From Candidatus Methylomirabilota bacterium (GTDB lineage: Bacteria > Methylomirabilota > Methylomirabilia > Rokubacteriales > CSP1-6), in the NCBI GenBank assembly GCA_035260325.1, contig DATFVL010000186.1, positions 1 through 38,066 of the forward strand: DNA of 38,066 bases, read 5' to 3'. Of this stretch, positions 3,001 through 32,686 are shown in pieces; the stretch's first letter is position 1; the number at the start of each line of letters is the position of its first letter. The notes beneath the pieces are model-generated. The model ran no database searches, was not told the origin of the DNA, and was given only the letters and a program-made list of their open reading frames with translations. A program made the position numbers and the translations under genes.

Positions 3001-3957
3001 GACGTCGCCAAGTGGGGGAAGGGCCGCTTCTACTACACCGAGGACTCCCAGACCATTCCGCGCATCTTCACCCTCGAGACGCAGCTGGCCTCGAAGGCGT
3101 CGTTGGTCGAGCAGCCCTTCAAGCCCCAGCTCACGTCGCCGAACCACGAGGCGATGCAGGAGATCGACTGGAAGAACGTGCCGCCCCTCGGCGGCTACGT
3201 CGCGACCACGCTCAAGTCCTCGGCCGAGCTGGTGCTCATGAGCCACCAGGAGGATCCGGTGCTCGCGACGTGGCGCTACGGGCTCGGGCGCTCGGCCGCG
3301 TTCACGTCGGACGCCAAGGCGAAGTGGGGCGTCCTCTGGCTGCGCTGGCGCGACTTCAACAAGTTCTGGTCGCAGCTCGTCCGCTGGACGCTGCGGAGCG
3401 GGTCGCGCAGCGACACCGTCGCGATCGTGGAGCGGCGCGACGCCCTGGGTGAGATCACCGTGGACGCGGTGGACCCGAAGGGCGAGTTCATCAACTTCCT
3501 GGACTCCCAGGTCGGCGTGGTCGCGCCGAACCGCGAGCGCTCGGTCATCGACCTCGAGCAGGTGGGGCCCGGGCGCTACCGCGGGCGCTTCCCCGCGTCG
3601 CAGGAGGGCGTCTACCTCGTGGGCATGGCCCAGCGGCGAGGCGACCGCGTCATCGGCTCGCAGCTCGCGGGGCTGGTGGTCCCGTACGCGCAGGAGCTGC
3701 GCGACCTCGGCGTGGACGAGACGCTGCTCCGCGAGCTGGCGGAGCTGACCGGCGGCGCCGCGCTCGAGAAGCCGCACGACGCGTTCCTCAAGGCGCGGCG
3801 CCGGTCGCGCATCTCCGTCGAGATCTGGCCGTGGCTGGTCGTGGCGGTGGCGGTGCTGCTGATCCCGGAGATCGCGCTGAGGCGGCTCGGGCCGGGCGCG
3901 TTCGCCCCGCTGGCGGCGCTCGTCCGCCGTCGCGTCGGCCGGAAGGAGGTCCCATGA
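1..3957 (+). CDS. Large membrane von Willebrand factor A protein (BatA-like/VWA), 5' end outside window
   Basis: The frame is open from the first base and the 1318 visible residues begin inside a VWA-like fold whose metal site would lie upstream, so the gene is probably truncated by the window. Visible order: end of a VWA-like domain and beta-rich segment (1-440); hydrophobic helices near 445-465 and 485-503; a VWA domain with MIDAS DxSxS at 520-524 (DLSDS); a beta domain; a class-I amidotransferase-like segment (about 740-830) without an obvious catalytic triad; a second VWA domain with MIDAS DRSGS from 862; a beta domain; a C-terminal helix near 1278-1296. The family is membrane-anchored and metal- or protein-binding, often next to MoxR/Bat genes. 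The substrate is unknown. The stop overlaps the start of the TPR gene, so the two are probably co-translated. Confidence 0.85.
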   Translation: MLVPFTREHDRVASAIRSVEAHDLPNRLAEALHTARALVGSDPRAEIHVFTDGAFVLPPGPETSDPRVRWIGVGRRSQNVGITNLSIRKAYFGSFDYQAFVSLVNFTAEPQTFTFTLELDRQTIAEKQVTLEPSVRRSVVLPFSHGGGGTVTARLGIDDDLAVDDVAYAVLPPPRKIGVLLVSPGNLFLEKVLRTDPQVALEVKTPEEYAGGMADADVVVLDSITPPRVGPGRFVFVNMVPTDVPLEVLGKIERPTIMDWDRAHPVMRHVEFAKVAIEDALRVRPLAAGRPLVEAVGGPLIYALEEPDRKALFIGFDLFKSDLPLRIAFPLILSNGLRWLHPAGLDQSSLQFAAGQPILLPVAHGVTRVTVTTPSGRRVSAPVTRGVVSFTETDEVGIYTLSTARGETRVAVNLMDANESNLMPRPLPAAAGPAAVAPAPIPIQRELWPAFVLLAAALLAAEGLLYWRRQSAGRLRVPAAPGDRWALAVRGALVVVLLLSLLRPSVPRWVDRMNVVFLLDLSDSVSLAARERAYRFVAEAARSMRGGDRHGVIVFGESAVVDEALTNRPAIERPKAQVDGRGTDIFQAIQLALAMLPPGQANRVVMLTDGRQNQGNALAGAQAAKDAGADLHYVPAPLTFTQEVVAEALLLPREVKYGEPFQAKVVAWSHRETQGRLSLFRNGEFLGSQVVRLAAGKNVFSYRQALDASGIHVYQAALEVDGDTIEENNRAIGAIVVRGRPQVLLAEKDRAHAQSLAAALRAQNIEVTVVEPAGVPSDLAGFQKYDGLVLSNVSSLKLTRAQMGHIRDYVRDYGGGLVMIGGEESFGLGGYYRTPVEEALPVTMEVKQKVEIPSLAVVLSIDRSGSMAMSTDEKVTKLDLAKEAAHLVVDLLDERNEVGVMSWDTEFLWDAPVRQAKDRQAIHHAIATIKAGGGTDGYPALKESYAVLFERPALLKHVIFLSDGQMTRGDFQGLLRRMAKDKITVSTVAIGKDADIQLMVDVAKWGKGRFYYTEDSQTIPRIFTLETQLASKASLVEQPFKPQLTSPNHEAMQEIDWKNVPPLGGYVATTLKSSAELVLMSHQEDPVLATWRYGLGRSAAFTSDAKAKWGVLWLRWRDFNKFWSQLVRWTLRSGSRSDTVAIVERRDALGEITVDAVDPKGEFINFLDSQVGVVAPNRERSVIDLEQVGPGRYRGRFPASQEGVYLVGMAQRRGDRVIGSQLAGLVVPYAQELRDLGVDETLLRELAELTGGAALEKPHDAFLKARRRSRISVEIWPWLVVAVAVLLIPEIALRRLGPGAFAPLAALVRRRVGRKEVP

Positions 3958-5303
3958 TGGGTGGGCTCGGACGGCGGTCCCGGCTCGGTCCGCTCGTGCT
4001 CGCGGCGGTCCTCGTCGCGTCCGGGGGGGCCACGGCGAGCGTCAAGCCGCGCGCGTTCGTCGTCCTGCCGTTCGACGCGAGCGCGCTCGGCCGGGAGGAG
4101 CAGTGGCTGGGCGAGGGGGTCGCGCAGGTGGTCACGCTCGGCCTGACCCAGCACGGGGCCGTCGTGCAGATCGAGCGCGCGCGCGTGCACGCGTACGGGC
4201 AGCCGGAGGTCTGGGGCGAGGCGGCCGTGCTCCACGCGGCGCGCGGCGTGCGCGCCGAGGCGGCGGCCTTCGGGCGGATCGAGCGGCGCGGCGACGAGTA
4301 CGTCGTCCAGGCGCGGCTGCTGGAGGTGAAGGCCGGGGGCGGCGACACCACCGCGTTCGAGCCCATCACGGCGCCGGAGGGCGAGCTCCTCGCCAAGATC
4401 GCGGCGCTCCCGCTCCTCTACGCCCGGACGCTTCGCATCCCGGTGACGGACCCCGAGGCGGCGCGAATCGAGCGCGCGGCGCGGCCGACGACCTCGCTGC
4501 GCGCCTTCGAGCTCTACGCGCGCGGCATGGTGGCGACGCAGCGCGGGAACCAGGAGGGCAACGAAGCGGCGGTCGACCTGCTCGCGCGCGCGATCGAGGC
4601 CGACCCGAACTTCGTCGTCGCCCACTACATGCTGGGCGTCGTCCACCAGGCGCTCGGCAACCGCTGGAAGGCCGCCGCGCAGTACCGCGCGTCGACGCAG
4701 CTGGACGCCGCCTATCCGGAGCCCTACAAGGCGCTCGGCGACCTGTTCCTCGCGGCGCCGCGCCGCCTCTTCGACCAGGCGGTGGAGGCGTACAGCAAGG
4801 CGATCGAGCTGCGGCCGTTCTACGCCGACGCCTACGTGGGGCTCGGCGAGGCGCGCGCGGCGAAGGGCGAGGTGGACGGCGCGATCGGCGCCTTCCAGAA
4901 GGCGCTCGTCTTCAACCCGGTGAACCCGAAGGTGTACATGAGCCTCGGCAAGATCTACTACGCGGAGAAGGGCCTCTATTACGAGTCGGTCAACGCCTAC
5001 AAGCGCGCGATCGAGCTCGACCCGCAGCTCATCGAGGCGCGGATGGGGCTCGGCGAGGTCTACGAGGAGAAGGGCCTCTACAAGGAGGCGATCGAGGAGT
5101 ACCGGCGGGTCATCGAGCTGGACGAGAAGAACACGGGCGCCCTCTACAACCTGGCGCTCGTGTACGAGAAGGTGGATCCCCGCGAGGCGATCGCCCACTG
5201 GGAGCGCTACATCCAGCTCGCCTCACCGCTGCAGTCCGAGAAGGACTGGGTGGACGTCGCGCGTCAGCACCTCAAGAAGCTGAAGGGGCAGGTCAGGGAC
5301 TAG
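3957..5303 (+). CDS. Exported tetratricopeptide-repeat protein
   Basis: A 448-residue protein. The start is ATG 3957, 7 nt after a strong AGGAGG (3944-3949); ATG 3954 is an in-frame alternative. The N-terminus has arginines, then a hydrophobic run (about residues 9-24) and small residues ending ATA-S, a plausible Sec signal peptide. Residues about 30-150 resemble the alpha/beta N-terminal domain (TolB/FlgO-like) common in bacterial TPR proteins. From about 180 to the end there are at least six TPR units with the A-x-x-x-Y-x-A-I-E-L-x-P pattern. It is likely a periplasmic or lipid-proximal scaffold working with the upstream VWA protein, as in Bat-type operons, where TPR and VWA proteins co-occur. 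No enzymatic residues are seen. Confidence 0.85.
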   Translation: MGGLGRRSRLGPLVLAAVLVASGGATASVKPRAFVVLPFDASALGREEQWLGEGVAQVVTLGLTQHGAVVQIERARVHAYGQPEVWGEAAVLHAARGVRAEAAAFGRIERRGDEYVVQARLLEVKAGGGDTTAFEPITAPEGELLAKIAALPLLYARTLRIPVTDPEAARIERAARPTTSLRAFELYARGMVATQRGNQEGNEAAVDLLARAIEADPNFVVAHYMLGVVHQALGNRWKAAAQYRASTQLDAAYPEPYKALGDLFLAAPRRLFDQAVEAYSKAIELRPFYADAYVGLGEARAAKGEVDGAIGAFQKALVFNPVNPKVYMSLGKIYYAEKGLYYESVNAYKRAIELDPQLIEARMGLGEVYEEKGLYKEAIEEYRRVIELDEKNTGALYNLALVYEKVDPREAIAHWERYIQLASPLQSEKDWVDVARQHLKKLKGQVRD

Positions 5304-5536
5304 GCGAGCAGCGACTGGAGCTTCGGCCGGTCGAAGCCGACCACGACCTGGTCGTCCACGACGATTACCGGAATCTGCATCCGCCCCGTGAGCCGCACGA
5401 GCTCGTCGCGCGCCTCCGCGTTCTCGGCCACGTTGAGGTCCTCGAACGGCACGCCCTGAGACGAAAGAAACTCTTTCGCCGCGCGGCAAGGGCCTCAGGT
5501 CGGGCTCGAGTAGACCCGGACGGAATGACTGCGCAT
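5300..5536 (-). CDS. Selenocysteine-containing glutaredoxin/NrdH-like redoxin (in-frame UGA)
   Basis: Read through one UGA (codon 14, 5497-5495), the frame gives 78 residues with a complete glutaredoxin fold. The N-terminal strand VRVYSSPT is followed by U-G-P-C, which replaces the usual C-x-x-C. Next come helix RAAKEFL, EDLNV, the cis-Pro signature IPVIVV and the family C-terminus VVGFDRPKLQSLL. The frame stays open and conserved on both sides of the UGA, which a pseudogene would not predict. GGAGG lies 7 nt upstream of ATG 5536. A hairpin at 5460-5480 fits a bacterial SECIS (separate entry). Members are thiol-disulfide reductants, and Sec at the N-terminal redox position is known in small Grx/Trx-like selenoproteins. 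The gene overlaps the convergent TPR gene by 4 nt and is divergent from galT. The selA/B/C/D genes are not in this window. Confidence 0.88.
5460..5480 (-). promoter_or_regulatory. Bacterial SECIS-like hairpin downstream of the Sec UGA
   Basis: On the minus strand a 7-bp perfect stem CGAAAGA/UCUUUCG (9 bp counting a G-U and a G-C pair) closes a 3-nt loop GUU. The loop starts 24 nt after the UGA (23 nt between). Published bacterial SECIS rules ask for a small apical loop with a G in the first two positions, a stem of 4-16 bp, and 16-37 nt between UGA and loop; all are met. A weaker outer pairing GCCCU/AGGGC (5489-5493 with 5453-5457) may close the element. The hairpin lies inside the coding sequence, as expected for SelB-dependent decoding. 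Confidence 0.8.
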
Positions 5537-5630
5537 GGGCGCCTCCCTTCTAATCTATGCGCGGCTTGCTCGCGGCCATGGGTATCATACTTGGGATGAG
5601 GGCGCGGGCCGCAGGGTTTCGGAGTCTCCC

Positions 5631-6631
5631 GTGGACGAGCTGAGAAAGGATCCGACGCGCGGGCACTGGGTGCTCATCCGGCCCAAGGGCAAGCCCCCGC
5701 TGACCGGTGAATGCCCGTACTGTCCGGGCGCCGAGCACCTCACCGCGCCGGAGATCGCCGCCTACCGCAAGGACGGGTCCGCGCCGAACGCGCCGGGCTG
5801 GTCGGTGCGCGTGGTCCCGGAGGGCGACGCGTACTTCCGCATCGAGTGTGACCTCGTGCGCGAGGGCGTCGGCATGTTCGACATGATCACGCCGCGCGGC
5901 GCCTCCGAGCTGATCCTCGAGTCGACCCGCCACGAGGACACGCTCGCGACGATGAGCCCGGACGCGCTGGAGACGGTGCTGTGGATGTACCGCGACCGTC
6001 TCGTGGACCTGAAGCGCGACGGCCAGATCCGCGACATCCTGGTGTCGCGGCGCCACAAGAAGCCGGGCGTGTCGACGCACCACCCGTACTCGCGCGTGAC
6101 GGCGATCCCGATCGTCTTCGACGAGACGCGCCGCGAGCTCCGCGAGGCGCGCGAGTACTATCAGTACAAGCGCCGCTGCCTCTACTGTGACATGCTCCGC
6201 CAGGAGAGCGGCGCCGAGGACCGCGTGGTGCGCCTGACACCCTTCTTCGCGGCGATCGTCCCGTACGCGGCGCGGACGCCGCTCGAGACCTGGATCCTCC
6301 CGCGCCAGCACGGCTGCTCCTACGAGGACACGCTGGGCCCCGAGAGCGCGCGCGACCTCGCGCGCCTGCTGTCCGAGTACTTCCGCGCGCTCGCGCAGGC
6401 CTTCGCCGACCCGGGCTTCGAGATGGAGCTCCACACGGCGCCGAACCTCAGGTCGCGCATCCTGCAAGGGGACTGGGCGACGATCCGCGACGACTATCAC
6501 TGGCACGTCGAGATCGTCCCGCAGCCCGAGCGCGCGAACCGCCTCGGCGGGATCTTCGTCAACGAGACGGCACCGGAGGTCTCCGCGGCGGAGCTGCGCC
6601 AGGCGTGGCCCGGCGGCGCCGCGGGCCGGCC

Positions 6632-6641
<10 letters not shown>
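5631..6641 (+). CDS. galT: Galactose-1-phosphate uridylyltransferase
   Basis: 336 residues from GTG 5631, which has GGAG 6 nt upstream; the open frame extends further 5' but without family-like sequence. It transfers UMP between UDP-glucose and galactose-1-phosphate in the Leloir pathway. Seen: zinc-type C-P-Y-C near residue 27, R-H-x-K segment about 140, second C-L-Y-C about 183, and the HIT-superfamily nucleophile motif H-W-H-V-E-I-V-P near 288. Length matches the family (about 330-350). No other gal genes are adjacent, so the physiological substrate could be another sugar phosphate. The 3' end overlaps the convergent glutamate dehydrogenase gene by 10 nt. Confidence 0.9.
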
Positions 6642-7955: not shown

Positions 7956-7999
7956 GCCGATTAGAAATGTCGGCGATAATAAGAGGGTCAGAGAAACCA

Positions 8000-8431
8000 A
8001 TGCTCCGGTTCACCAAGCGCGCCGATTACGGGTTGATGGCGATTCATTATATCGCCGTCCACGACGGCCCCGGCACGATCAGCGCCAAGCGGATCGCCGA
8101 GGAGTTCGGGATCCCGCCGGAGCTGCTCGCGAAGGTCCTCCAGCGGCTGGCGAAGCGGCGGCTGATCGTGAGCCAGAACGGTCCCAAGGGTGGTTACGCG
8201 CTCGCGCGCCAGCCGAACGAGATCACCGTGGGCGAGGTGATCCGTGCGCTCGAAGGGCCGATCAGCATCGTGAGCTGCATGGACCACGGCGGTTGCCCGC
8301 AGGAGCCGCGCTGTAATCTCAAGCGGCCGGTGCAGAAGCTCCAGGCGGCGATCAGCCAGCTGCTCGACACGATGAGCCTGGCGGAGCTCACGAGCGACGA
8401 CATCCCCGAGATCCTCTCGATCCGGGCGTAA
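8000..8431 (+). CDS. iscR: Rrf2-family Fe-S-responsive transcriptional regulator (IscR-like)
   Basis: 143 residues from ATG 8000; an upstream in-frame ATG at 7967 adds 11 non-family residues. The N-terminal winged helix-turn-helix begins LRFTKRADYGL, a typical Rrf2 start. Cysteines 93, 99 and 105 have the C-x5-C-x5-C spacing of E. coli IscR (92/98/104), which bind a [2Fe-2S] cluster. The histidine ligand IscR carries three residues after the last cysteine is Lys108 here, so cluster ligation or stability may differ. First gene of the isc operon, 13 nt before iscS, and the likely autorepressor sensing Fe-S supply. Confidence 0.9.
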   Translation: MLRFTKRADYGLMAIHYIAVHDGPGTISAKRIAEEFGIPPELLAKVLQRLAKRRLIVSQNGPKGGYALARQPNEITVGEVIRALEGPISIVSCMDHGGCPQEPRCNLKRPVQKLQAAISQLLDTMSLAELTSDDIPEILSIRA

Positions 8432-8444
8432 GGAGACGGTGCCC

Positions 8445-9671
8445 ATGGCCCTGAAGTTCCCGATCTTCATGGACGCGCAGTCGACGACGCCGGTGGACCC
8501 GCGGGTCGTCGACGCGATGCTGCCGTACTTCACCGAGAAGTTCGGCCATCCGGCGAGCCGTAACCACCCGTTCGGCTGGGAGGCCGAGGCGGCGGTCGAC
8601 GCGGCGCGTGCGCAGCTGGCGCGCCTGATCGGTGCCCGCGACCCGAAGGAGCTCGTCTTCACGTCGGGGGGGACGGAGTCGATCAATCTCGCGCTCAAGG
8701 GCATCGCCGAGATGTACCGGGAGAAGGGCAACCACATCGTCACGACGGTCATCGAGCAGCGGGCGGGCCTGGACGTGTGCAAGCGCCTCGAGCGGCAGGG
8801 CGTCGAGGTCACGTACGTGGGCGTGCAGCCGGACGGTCTCGTGGACGTCGAGGCGATCCGCAAGGCGATCACCGACAAGACCATCCTGATCTCGGTGATG
8901 TTCGCGAACAACGAGATCGGGACGATCCAGGACATCGCCGCGATCGGCAAGCTCGCCAAGGAGAAGGGCATCATCTTCCACACGGACGCGACGCAGGCGC
9001 TCGGGAAGATCCCGGTGGACGTGGAAGGGATGGGCATCGACCTGCTCTCGTGCACCTCCCACCTGGTCTACGGCCCGAAGGGCGTCGGCGCGCTGTACGT
9101 CCGGCGCAAGGGGCCGCGCGTGCGCATCGCGCCGCTCATCGACGGCGGCGGCCACGAGCGTGGGATGCGGTCGGGCACGCTGCCGGTGCCGCTCATCGTC
9201 GGGTTCGGCCGCGCCGCGGAGCTCTGCGGCGAGGTGATGGCGGAAGAGCGCGTGCGTCTGGCGAAGCTGCGCGACCGGCTTCAGGATCTGATCCTCTCCA
9301 ACGTGGACGAGGCGTTCCTGAATGGGCACCCGGAGCGGCGCCTGCCGCACAACCTGAACATCTCCTTCGCCTACGTCGAGGGCGAGTCGTTCCTGATGGG
9401 CCTGAACAAGGAGACCGCGCTCTCCTCGGGCTCGGCCTGCACCTCCTCGACGCTCGAGCCCTCGTACGTCATCGCGGCGCTCGGGGCGAGCGCGGAGCTC
9501 GCGCATTCGTCCATCCGGTGGAGCCTCCACCGCTTCAACACGGAGGAGGAGGTCGACTACGTGGGGAAGCGGACGATCGAGGTCGTCACGCGGCTCCGCG
9601 AGATGTCGCCGCTCTACGAGCTCGCCAAGGAAGGCGTCGATATCAAGTCCATCCAGTGGAAGGCTGAGTAA
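8445..9671 (+). CDS. iscS: IscS-like cysteine desulfurase homologue lacking the PLP lysine (probable pseudoenzyme)
   Basis: 408 residues from ATG 8445 (AGGAG about 9 nt upstream; a GTG at 8439 sits too close to it). Group-I IscS throughout: TTPVDPRV, FTSGGTES, NNEIG, TDATQ, GGGHERGMRSGTLPV, the persulfide loop SSGSACTS with Cys332, and the C-terminal GVDIKSIQW that docks IscU. Two catalytic positions are changed. The S-G-H-K-I-Y-G-P-K-G motif reads T-S-H-L-V-Y-G-P-K-G, so the PLP Schiff-base lysine is Leu207 (CTG 9063-9065). The PLP-stacking E-H-K-A is E-Q-R-A (Gln105, 8757-8759). The lysine change needs two base substitutions and the frame is intact, so a read error is unlikely. Normal desulfuration is not expected. 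An Archaeoglobus fulgidus IscS without this lysine is known. A docking or sulfur-accepting role is possible. Confidence 0.93.
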   Translation: MALKFPIFMDAQSTTPVDPRVVDAMLPYFTEKFGHPASRNHPFGWEAEAAVDAARAQLARLIGARDPKELVFTSGGTESINLALKGIAEMYREKGNHIVTTVIEQRAGLDVCKRLERQGVEVTYVGVQPDGLVDVEAIRKAITDKTILISVMFANNEIGTIQDIAAIGKLAKEKGIIFHTDATQALGKIPVDVEGMGIDLLSCTSHLVYGPKGVGALYVRRKGPRVRIAPLIDGGGHERGMRSGTLPVPLIVGFGRAAELCGEVMAEERVRLAKLRDRLQDLILSNVDEAFLNGHPERRLPHNLNISFAYVEGESFLMGLNKETALSSGSACTSSTLEPSYVIAALGASAELAHSSIRWSLHRFNTEEEVDYVGKRTIEVVTRLREMSPLYELAKEGVDIKSIQWKAE

Positions 9672-9683
9672 GGGAGGCCGCGC

Positions 9684-10094
9684 ATGGCGTACAGCGAGAA
9701 GGTCGTCGATCACTACAACAACCCGCGCAATGTCGGCTCGTTCGCGAAGGACACGCCGGGCGTCGGGACGGGGCTCGTGGGCGCGCCGGAGTGCGGCGAC
9801 GTGATGAAGCTCCAGATCAAGGTGAATGTCGAGACCGGCGTGATCGAGGACGCGAAGTTCAAGACCTTCGGGTGCGGCAGTGCGATCGCGTCGTCGAGCC
9901 TGGCGACCGAGTGGCTGAAGGGCAAGTCCGTCGACGAGGCCGCCAAGATCAAGAACACCGACATCGTGAACGAGCTGAAGCTGCCGCCGGTGAAGATCCA
10001 CTGCTCGGTGCTCGCCGAGGACGCGATCAAGGCGGCGCTGTCGGATTACAAAGAGAAGTGGGCCGCCGCGAATGCGGCGGCTGAGTCGAAATAG
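9684..10094 (+). CDS. iscU: Fe-S cluster assembly scaffold IscU
   Basis: 136 residues. It builds [2Fe-2S]/[4Fe-4S] clusters from persulfide sulfur and iron and passes them on with HscA/HscB. All ligands are present: Cys37 with following Asp39 (PECGD), Cys64 (FGCGS) and Cys107 in K-I-H-C-S-V-L-A. The HscA-recognition L-P-P-V-K motif is intact just before Cys107. The C-terminal lysine/alanine tail is slightly longer than in E. coli (128 residues). Twelve nt after iscS with a GGGAGG ribosome site. This scaffold looks fully functional, in contrast to the IscS next to it. Confidence 0.97.
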   Translation: MAYSEKVVDHYNNPRNVGSFAKDTPGVGTGLVGAPECGDVMKLQIKVNVETGVIEDAKFKTFGCGSAIASSSLATEWLKGKSVDEAAKIKNTDIVNELKLPPVKIHCSVLAEDAIKAALSDYKEKWAAANAAAESK

Positions 10095-10113
10095 GGACGG
10101 GAGGCGAGGCGCC

Positions 10114-10443
10114 ATGGCGGTGACGTTGTCCGAGGCTGCGGCCAAGCAGGTGAAGGAGCTGAAGCAGGCCCAGAATCTGCCCGACACCGTCTTTCTTCGC
10201 ATGGGCGTGAAGGGCGGCGGGTGCTCCGGACTCTCGTACGCGCTCGAGTTCGACAGCGAGAAGGGCCCGCACGACAAGGAGTTCGAGATCGACGGGATCA
10301 AGATCGTGGTGGACAAGAAGAGCTACATCTACCTGAACGGCACCACGCTCGACTACGTCCAGCAGGGGCTGACGGGCGGCTTCACATTCGTCAACCCCCA
10401 GGCGAAGTCGAGCTGTGGATGCGGGACGTCGTTCTCGGCATAG
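10114..10443 (+). CDS. iscA: A-type Fe-S carrier IscA
   Basis: 109 residues from ATG 10114, with GGGAGGCGAGG upstream. HesB/IscA fold with the three conserved ligands Cys37 (GGGCSG), Cys101 and Cys103 (SCGCGTSFS). A-type carriers accept clusters from IscU and deliver them, mainly as [4Fe-4S], to apo-targets. The gene follows iscU by 19 nt and is followed by a strong hairpin terminator that separates it from hscB. Confidence 0.96.
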   Translation: MAVTLSEAAAKQVKELKQAQNLPDTVFLRMGVKGGGCSGLSYALEFDSEKGPHDKEFEIDGIKIVVDKKSYIYLNGTTLDYVQQGLTGGFTFVNPQAKSSCGCGTSFSA

Positions 10444-10462
10444 TCGGGTCCGCCGAACCAAC

Positions 10463-10497
10463 GCGAACGGGCCCGGCGGAGGGCCCGTTCGCATTTT
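10463..10497 (+). terminator. Rho-independent terminator within the isc operon
   Basis: A perfect 12-bp stem, GCGAACGGGCCC (10463-10474) with GGGCCCGTTCGC (10481-10492), has a 6-nt loop and is followed by ATTTTG. The short U-run suggests partial rather than complete termination. It lies between iscA and hscB and could lower chaperone-gene expression relative to the core genes. Confidence 0.75.
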
Positions 10498-10515
10498 GAG
10501 GAGTCGATAGGGCGC

Positions 10516-11083
10516 ATGGATTACTTCGAGGTCTTCGGGCTCCCCCGGAGGCTCCGTCTGGACGCGGCCGAGCTGCAGCGGAAGTTCTACGAGCTGTCGC
10601 GACGCACGCACCCGGACTTCCACCAGGCGGAGCCCGCGGAGGCGCAGGCGCGCGTGCTCGAGACCTCCGCGCGGCTCAACGCGGCGTACCGCGCGCTGCG
10701 CGACCCAATCGCGCGCATCGAGTACCTCGTGCGCCTCGAGGAGGGACGGGACACCAAGGAGGGCGCCGCCGAGAAGCCCAAGGCGCCGCCGGAGCTGCTC
10801 GCGGAGATGTTCGAGATCCAGGAAGCGCTGGAGGAGGCGAAGGCCGGCGGCCTCGACGCCGCGGGGCGTGGGGCCCTGGCGACGCAGCGGGACCGGCTGG
10901 CCGCGCGCGTGCTCGGGATCGAGTCGGACCTCGCCGGGCGGCTCAGCGAGGCCTGGGACCGGGCGGCGGCCGAGCAGCGGCGGCGCCTCATCGGGCAGTT
11001 CAAGGAGGCGCTCGCGGCGCGCGCGTACCTCCGCACCGTGATCGACGATCTGGGCACGGTACTCGGAGAGAGCCAGGACGGAC

Positions 11084-11106
<23 letters not shown>
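10516..11106 (+). CDS. hscB: J-domain co-chaperone HscB
   Basis: 196 residues. The N-terminal J-domain (1-75) has the H-P-D motif (RRTHPDF, about 32-34), which stimulates HscA ATPase. The C-terminal three-helix domain (about 90-170; ELLAEMFEIQEALEEAK) matches the IscU-binding domain of HscB. It recruits IscU to HscA for cluster transfer. Starts 18 nt after the terminator hairpin, with AGGAG at 10499-10503; its last 23 nt overlap hscA. Confidence 0.93.
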
Positions 11107-12912
<1,806 letters not shown>

Positions 12913-12913
<1 letters not shown>

Positions 12914-30496: not shown

Positions 30497-32686
30497 GTGT
30501 GGGCCGGGCTCGCGGACCCCGATACAGTGACCCGGGCCCCGCGCGGGACGCGCCGCGACCGGGCGCTCGTCGCCGCGGCGTTCGCCGCCCTCGTGGCGGT
30601 CGCCGCGGTCTGGCTCGCGTGGGACCGGCGCCCGCCTGAGTGGGACCACGCGAACCACCTCGAGCGCGCCGTCGTCTGCGCCCAGGACATGGTGCGCGGC
30701 GACGTGCGCGCGATCCTCGAGCGCTCGACGTTCTACCCGCCGCTCGTGCCCTGCGCTGCGGGCCTCGTGTACTTGATCTGGCCGTCCGACGCCGCCGCGG
30801 CCCAGGCCGTGGTCCTCCTGTTCCTCGGCCTCGGGATGGGGGCGGTCTACGCGCTCGGGCGGCGGCTCGCGGGCGGCCCCGAGGGCGTCGTCGCCGCGCT
30901 CGTCTTCGGGAGCGCGCCCTTCGTCGTCTTTTCCTCGCTCCGCTTCCAGCTCGATCTCCCGCTCGCCGCGATGGTCGCCTTGGCCGTCGCGGTGCTGCTC
31001 CGGACCGAGGCCTTCACGCGCCCCGGCCCGACCTTCGCCTTCGGCGTGGTCCTCGGGCTCGGGCTGCTCACCAAGCCGCCGTTCGCCGCCTACGTCCTGA
31101 TCCCGCTGGCCTTCGTCCTCGCCCGCGTGCGGAGGGCCCGCGCGCTCGCGAGCGCGGTGCTCGCCGGCGGGCTCGGTCTGGCCCTCGCGCTGCCGTGGTA
31201 CGGCCCGCGGCTCTTCGGCCTGGTGCCCGAGGTCGCCGCGCGCTCGTTCAGGCAGGCCGCCGAGTCGGGTCACCCGGATCCGCTCTCGGCGGCGGCGCTC
31301 GCGCTCTATCCACGCTGGTTCGTGCCCCAGTTCGGGCTCGTCGCGACGCTTCTGCTCGTCGGTGGCCTCGCGGCCGCGGCCGCCCGCCGGCGGTGGCTCC
31401 TGCCTGCGAGCGTGCTCGCGCCGCTCGCCCTGCTCGCGGCGATCCAGAACAAGAACCTCCGGTACACGCTCCCGCTCCTGCCGTTCGCGGCGGTGCTCGC
31501 CGGCATGGGCTTCGGCGCGCTGCGCGGGCGCCCACGCGCGCTCGTGCTCGCGGCGCTCGTCGCTGCTGCGGCCGCGCAGGTGAGCGCCACCGCGTTCGGG
31601 GTCCCGCCGAGCCCGACGCTGCCCGGGCTCGGCGTTCCGCTGCTCCTCGCCTCACCGCCGGTCCGCGACGACTGGCGCCATCGAGAGATCCTGACGCTTC
31701 TCGCGAAGGACAGCCGCGGCGCCGCGGCGACCGTCAGCGTCGTGCCGAACGACAACTTCTTCTCGGTGAGCAACTTCCGCTATTACAGCGTGCGCGACGG
31801 CCTCGCGCTCAGGTGGGCCCGAGGCTGGGACGGCGAGCCCGTGGGGATCGACTACATGATCCTCAAGACGGGCTCTCAGGGGCCATCATGGACTGCCGAG
31901 AGGCCCCGCCGGATCCACGAGCGCCTCGCCGACGATCCTCATCTCGCGCGCGTCTATCCGGTCATCGGCGAGTGGACGCTCCCCGACGGCTCGACCGCGA
32001 CCCTGAGGGCACGGCGGATCGAGCCCGGCGTCACGGCCGCCCTGGGGCGCCTCGCCCGCGCGGCCGAGAACGCCGTGCGGCGCCGGCTCGCCGAGGTCGC
32101 GCGCGACGTGGAGGGGCTCGAGGTGCTGATCGTCCACGGCGAGGCGATCCGGCGGGGCCGCCTGGAGCGGATCGAGATCGCCGCGCGCGCGGCGGCGGTC
32201 GGCGAGCTCTCGCGCCGGAATGCGGCGGTCCTGCGCGTGCACGATCTCCGGATCGCGTTCGAGGACGTGCTCGTGAACCCGTGGAGCCTCGAGGCCGCGG
32301 GGCGCCTCGACCCGCTCGACGCGCGGCGCGTGCGCCTCCTCGCGGTGACGATCCGGGCACCCGACCTCGCCGCGTTCCTCCGGGACGTCAAGGGCTTCCG
32401 TCAGGCCGAGGTGCGTCTCGAGCCTGGCGCGCTCGCGTTCGTGTTCCGGCAGCCGGGCCCGGACGTGTCGGGACGCGTCCGGATCCTGCCGTCGGCGGAT
32501 CGGCCCTTCGAGCTCGCCTTCGAGCAGGTGAGGGTCGGCGGCGTTCCGGCGCCGGGGATGGTCGTGGACTGGGTGGTTCGCGGATATGATCCCTCGCTGA
32601 GGCTGGCGAGCCGCCTGCCCGTGCCCGTCGAGATCGGTCGGGTCGAGATCGCTCCCGACGCCGTCCGGATCTCGACGAGCCGCTGA
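30497..32686 (+). CDS. GT39-like membrane glycosyltransferase fused to an LmeA (DUF2993)-like domain
   Basis: 729 residues from GTG 30497; GTG 30527, ten codons in, is an equally plausible start. The first 510 residues resemble the dolichyl-phosphate-mannose/ArnT-like family: many hydrophobic helices (first about 25-45) with an acidic-loop E-W-D-H-A-N-H after helix 1, where the catalytic Asp of the family lies. The last 220 residues (about 510-729) are a soluble beta-rich domain of the LmeA/DUF2993 type (A-E-N-A-V-R-R-R-L then V-L-R-V-H-D-L-R-I-A-F-E-D-V), which binds phospholipid in the family. It probably transfers a sugar from a polyprenyl carrier outside the membrane and binds the acceptor lipid with the tail. 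Partner GT2 and methyltransferase genes lie upstream. Confidence 0.75.
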   Translation: MWAGLADPDTVTRAPRGTRRDRALVAAAFAALVAVAAVWLAWDRRPPEWDHANHLERAVVCAQDMVRGDVRAILERSTFYPPLVPCAAGLVYLIWPSDAAAAQAVVLLFLGLGMGAVYALGRRLAGGPEGVVAALVFGSAPFVVFSSLRFQLDLPLAAMVALAVAVLLRTEAFTRPGPTFAFGVVLGLGLLTKPPFAAYVLIPLAFVLARVRRARALASAVLAGGLGLALALPWYGPRLFGLVPEVAARSFRQAAESGHPDPLSAAALALYPRWFVPQFGLVATLLLVGGLAAAAARRRWLLPASVLAPLALLAAIQNKNLRYTLPLLPFAAVLAGMGFGALRGRPRALVLAALVAAAAAQVSATAFGVPPSPTLPGLGVPLLLASPPVRDDWRHREILTLLAKDSRGAAATVSVVPNDNFFSVSNFRYYSVRDGLALRWARGWDGEPVGIDYMILKTGSQGPSWTAERPRRIHERLADDPHLARVYPVIGEWTLPDGSTATLRARRIEPGVTAALGRLARAAENAVRRRLAEVARDVEGLEVLIVHGEAIRRGRLERIEIAARAAAVGELSRRNAAVLRVHDLRIAFEDVLVNPWSLEAAGRLDPLDARRVRLLAVTIRAPDLAAFLRDVKGFRQAEVRLEPGALAFVFRQPGPDVSGRVRILPSADRPFELAFEQVRVGGVPAPGMVVDWVVRGYDPSLRLASRLPVPVEIGRVEIAPDAVRISTSR

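Follow-up and report, generated by a model that had tools for sequence, protein, structure and literature searches.

Does a minus-strand reading frame interrupted by a single in-frame TGA, lying where ORF calling finds almost nothing, encode a glutaredoxin with selenocysteine (Sec) in its active site? The window, by which we mean the whole stretch of 38,066 nucleotides analysed here, is contig C186 of a 3.77-Mb MAG (96% complete), and the gene has its closest named relatives in Candidatus Rokuibacteriota / Rokubacteria (Methylomirabilota in GTDB). We found the frame as the preliminary description had reported it, with 78 residues, a stop and one lone internal TGA, and the ribosome binding site that it had claimed is also in place (Table 1). 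Read through on the minus strand from 5536 to 5300, the frame gives MRSHSVRVYSSPTUGPCRAAKEFLSSQGVPFEDLNVAENAEARDELVRLTGRMQIPVIVVDDQVVVGFDRPKLQSLLA*. Just as had been noted, the locus is nearly empty to ORF calling: the mechanical ORF list holds, in this frame, only a GTG-initiated fragment of 50 aa (5300-5452), and given that list it is plausible that automatic annotation has overlooked the gene. We are highly confident that the locus encodes a predicted functional selenoprotein of the glutaredoxin superfamily, with SECIS-directed Sec at codon 14.

Table 1. Features of the Sec glutaredoxin locus and its immediate neighbours (window positions).
Feature	Position	Strand	Basis
Sec glutaredoxin CDS, 78 aa + stop, single UGA read as Sec	5300..5536	-	frame, Pfam, homologues
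In-frame UGA = Sec14, catalytic N-terminal position of U-G-P-C (S-P-T-U-G-P-C)	5495..5497	-	codon in homologues
Cys17 codon TGC, resolving cysteine kept	5486..5488	-	frame, homologues
Bacterial SECIS hairpin GGCGAAAGA-GUU-UCUUUCGUC, 9 bp stem, 3-nt loop, G first	5460..5480	-	folding, covariation; 23 nt after UGA
Ribosome binding site GGGAGG, 5 nt upstream of ATG	5542..5547	-	sequence
TPR-repeat protein, convergent neighbour, stop overlaps Grx stop	3831..5303	+	ORF, profile match, conserved neighbour
GalT-like (galactose-1-phosphate uridylyltransferase family), divergent neighbour; GTG start near 5631 inferred	5631..6641	+	profile match, conserved neighbour

The glutaredoxin-like sequence said to lie on both sides of the TGA was borne out by the Pfam Glutaredoxin profile (PF00462; 70 bits vs. 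a gathering cut-off of 22.9), which, with Cys written for U, matches over the whole model (E 1.9e-19), so that the frame on either side of the UGA is not there by chance. The protein also passed NCBIfam TIGR02196 (GlrX_YruB), narrowly (89.3 bits vs. 88.55), a model for glutaredoxin-like proteins in general, with no reference to Sec in its name; it aligned over nearly the whole of NF041212 (Uxx-star family glutaredoxin-like (seleno)protein) with a score just under the curated cut-off (64.4 vs. 66 bits), and is therefore not filed there. The AF2 model (pLDDT 94.6) has the thioredoxin fold, as judged from AF2 and Foldseek, and its closest fold match, 7c10 (rmsd 1.0, 49% identity), is cGrx1, which also heads the PDB matches by sequence (E 2.5e-16). 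cGrx1, the Grx1 of Clostridium oremlandii (PDB 7c10, 7c12, 7c13), is natively a Sec glutaredoxin, and the two proteins have in common Sec at the N-terminal catalytic position, a retained resolving Cys, KEFLS after the active site and VGFD near the C-terminus (PMC7642778); they differ in phylum and in motif, U-G-P-C here against the U-P-H-C inferred for cGrx1. The preliminary description was thus right to place Sec in the active site, at the first position of U-x-x-C, but not in taking the replaced residue for the resolving Cys: the attacking Cys is the one replaced, and resolving C17 is kept. As the available portions of PMC1088965, PMC1794560 and PMC13188914 describe them, UxxC Sec glutaredoxins are an established selenoprotein family of Zhang and Gladyshev, with the same PF00462 domain and with a bSECIS following the UGA; those portions make no mention of a Rokubacterial glutaredoxin, and that of PMC13188914 reports a very large selenoproteome for a Methylomirabilota MAG. 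The kind of protein is therefore already known, and the Rokubacterial UxxC glutaredoxin adds a new member to the YruB / C. oremlandii Grx1-like group.

A lone TGA at a Cys position is also what a TGC-to-TGA mutation or a sequencing error would leave in a former Cys glutaredoxin. Among the matches listed, however, every same-family match spanning the position (~54% identity or more; 290 genomes) carries exactly one internal TGA, and the catalytic codon is TGA in 30/30 homologues, nearly all from the same taxonomic family; these 30 were chosen as the strongest matches and placed by means of their own TGA, and the 290-genome comparison shows the same without such selection. Both flanks of the UGA are under purifying selection (30 homologues), with pN/pS 0.11 upstream and 0.20 downstream of it. 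When the set was widened to 91 homologues, now located by alignment, 65 have TGA at the catalytic codon, 26 have TGC or TGT and none has TAA or TAG, which provides both the Sec/Cys pair and TGA homologues in other organisms. Decay of the frame in close relatives, which the preliminary description had said would tell against it, did not appear: frame, UGA and SECIS hairpin are kept in dozens of genomes. With the same TGA in dozens of independently assembled genomes, strong selection downstream of it and a hairpin that shows compensatory changes, we regard a pseudogene or sequencing error as extremely improbable, the conservation of TGA and frame being what refutes it. One partial match (G056:C1:124369-124503) contains two TGA codons and one TAG, and is possibly a decayed gene copy.

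The apical hairpin that follows the UGA folds at -10.9 kcal/mol (z -3.2); when the full 61 nt are folded, z is only -1.24, the signal sitting in the apical hairpin. PMC13188914 asks of a bSECIS a stem of 4-16 bp, a loop of 3-9 nt with a G among its first two positions, a distance of 16-37 nt from the UGA and an MFE of at most -7.5; the hairpin lies within all of these limits, its stem being 9 bp long, its loop 3 nt with a leading G, its distance 23 nt and its energy -10.9 kcal/mol. An outer stem (GCCCU with AGGGC), which by eye is not kept in all relatives, was dropped from the element, and a search of the window against Rfam returned no match. In every Sec homologue examined (65/65 sequences) the element begins 23 nt past the UGA, the 3-nt loop position opens with G, and the stem has up to 9 bp. 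Pair cells are formed in 547/585 cases in the 65 Sec sequences vs. 90/234 in the 26 Cys homologues, and at least six of the seven inner pairs in 64/65 Sec vs. 0/26 Cys sequences (Fisher p 7e-22, nominal since the sequences are related); the hairpin was looked for in all 26 Cys homologues and found in none. In a set of 45 sequences the proportion of pair cells formed is 95.3%, compared with 47-67% when the partner is slid, and three pairs are changed on both sides; among the 65 sequences two pairs vary in compensatory fashion, chiefly as CG/AU/UA and AU/UA/CG. Several of these changes alter the amino acid (for example, codon +7 goes from K to M and codon +6 from A to E or V), and the pairing is therefore not a by-product of protein conservation.

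The stem also leaves its mark on the coding sequence. It forces the codons AAA-GAG-TTT-CTT-TCG-TCT in the Rokubacterial gene; in five confident genes of the genome TTT and TCT are unseen and CTT accounts for 0.5% of Leu codons. Of the Sec forms, 58/65 have EFLS (or GFLS) after the active site, vs. 1/26 Cys forms. That lone Cys form with KEFLS (L104, G218:C14) has a broken hairpin remnant and comes from a genome without selA; both features fit a recent change from Sec to Cys, and it looks as if this change followed the loss of the Sec machinery. A divergent subgroup of Sec glutaredoxins (L120, L134-L139), mostly with N-V-G-U-G-P-C and with EYLS, forms its hairpin from different pairs at the same spacing and with the same loop G.

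The UGA could also be a true stop that yields a truncated product, with a restart at the GTG near 5452, and the GTG-initiated 50-aa frame does exist. The stretch from the UGA to that GTG, which includes resolving Cys17 and helix 1, is nevertheless conserved like the rest; each of the two fragments would fall short of a full glutaredoxin fold with its active site, and the SECIS would serve no purpose. We consider termination at this codon very unlikely indeed.

Sec insertion at codon 14 calls for an organism that decodes Sec, as the preliminary description had assumed, and the search of the MAG for sel genes upheld this. The MAG has tRNA-Sec (selC; 69.8 bits, anticodon tca, i.e. UCA), selA (587 bits, profile search) and, directly beside selA, the N-terminal part of selB (positions 1-162), cut by the contig end, the three forming one cluster; selD is found as two fragments at contig ends, the N-terminal one reading CAGUASK. 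The absence of selA, selB or selC, named beforehand as refuting, was thus not borne out, and the machinery of a bacterial selenoprotein is there, selB in part. From its sequence, SelD (selenophosphate synthetase) itself appears to be a selenoprotein (N-terminus MAEHTHTEVRLTSYAACAGUASK, L047, G000:C183:9121-9309); its second fragment (L048, G000:C305) lies at a different contig end and the overlap is not identical, so that the gene may be present twice or the MAG may mix strains. Among the 119 relatives searched, 94 have selA at the curated cut-off. Some genomes carry the UGA glutaredoxin without selA, among them G167 (97% complete) and G031 (listed as 100% complete), the latter also with no selC above cut-off; since selA and selC are clustered in the genome studied here, one gap in the assembly could account for the absence of both, and a missing selABC contig is the likely explanation.

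General recoding of UGA exists in some bacteria, and by that precedent the codon might be read as Cys or Trp. Against this stand the Sec machinery, the gene-specific SECIS and a scan of the window that found no other convincing internal UGA, and we accordingly give such a reading next to no credence. The one candidate of that scan, at 32684, is a normal stop ahead of an HhH-GPD DNA-repair gene; the scan does not flag the glutaredoxin itself, and hence can miss selenoproteins with SECIS-biased codons.

The gene order VWA-TPR-Grx-GalT-Rrf2-IscS is conserved across most Rokubacteria, from which it follows that the Rokubacterial glutaredoxin homologues are largely orthologues; a search of phage records gave no match. 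Nearby, at 7967-12913 (+) of the window, lies an ISC operon (Rrf2 regulator, IscS, IscU, IscA-like, HscB, HscA), conserved but on the other strand, which makes a link to Fe-S assembly only a lead. The MAG holds a second Sec glutaredoxin paralogue (L044/L046, G000:C29:25500-25724), with the motif W-S-T-T-U-Q-S-C and the same SECIS hairpin; a strict SECIS pattern run on the genome hits only these two genes.

By the known mechanism, SelB with Sec-tRNA(UCA) would bind the SECIS hairpin of the mRNA and insert Sec at codon 14, a route of which all components are seen here except the C-terminal part of selB. The product is predicted to fold as a small thioredoxin-fold redoxin, in which the conserved Pro56 is the proline known from the family to be cis. 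By analogy with cGrx1, and from the conserved U-x-x-C, the U14 selenolate would attack a disulfide (or related oxidised group) on the substrate, and C17 would resolve the mixed selenenylsulfide. cGrx1 is described as glutathione-reduced, whereas the 96% complete MAG gave no match to the GCS2 (GCS2-type GshA only) or GSH-S_ATP profiles, and glutathione is thus an unlikely reductant on this genomic evidence. Re-reduction would probably depend on a thioredoxin-reductase-like flavoenzyme or another low-molecular-weight thiol; a thioredoxin-reductase fragment lies at a contig end in the MAG, and thioredoxin reductase is a candidate partner. Methionine sulfoxide reductase has been proposed as a substrate of cGrx1 and, by analogy, is one guess at a putative substrate here.

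We tentatively propose that the Rokubacterial Sec glutaredoxin is a conserved single-locus protein, not replaced by a Cys form and independent of glutathione, whose K-E-F-L-S is set by the SECIS and not by protein function; the last point is raised because Sec forms from different phyla have both motif and hairpin and Cys forms have neither. By computation, a firmly supported selenoprotein is added to an uncultured phylum, and a gene skipped by ORF calling proves recoverable from UGA, SECIS and conservation taken together. Compared with one another, the Sec and Cys homologues also show cleanly how an RNA element constrains the sequence of a protein.
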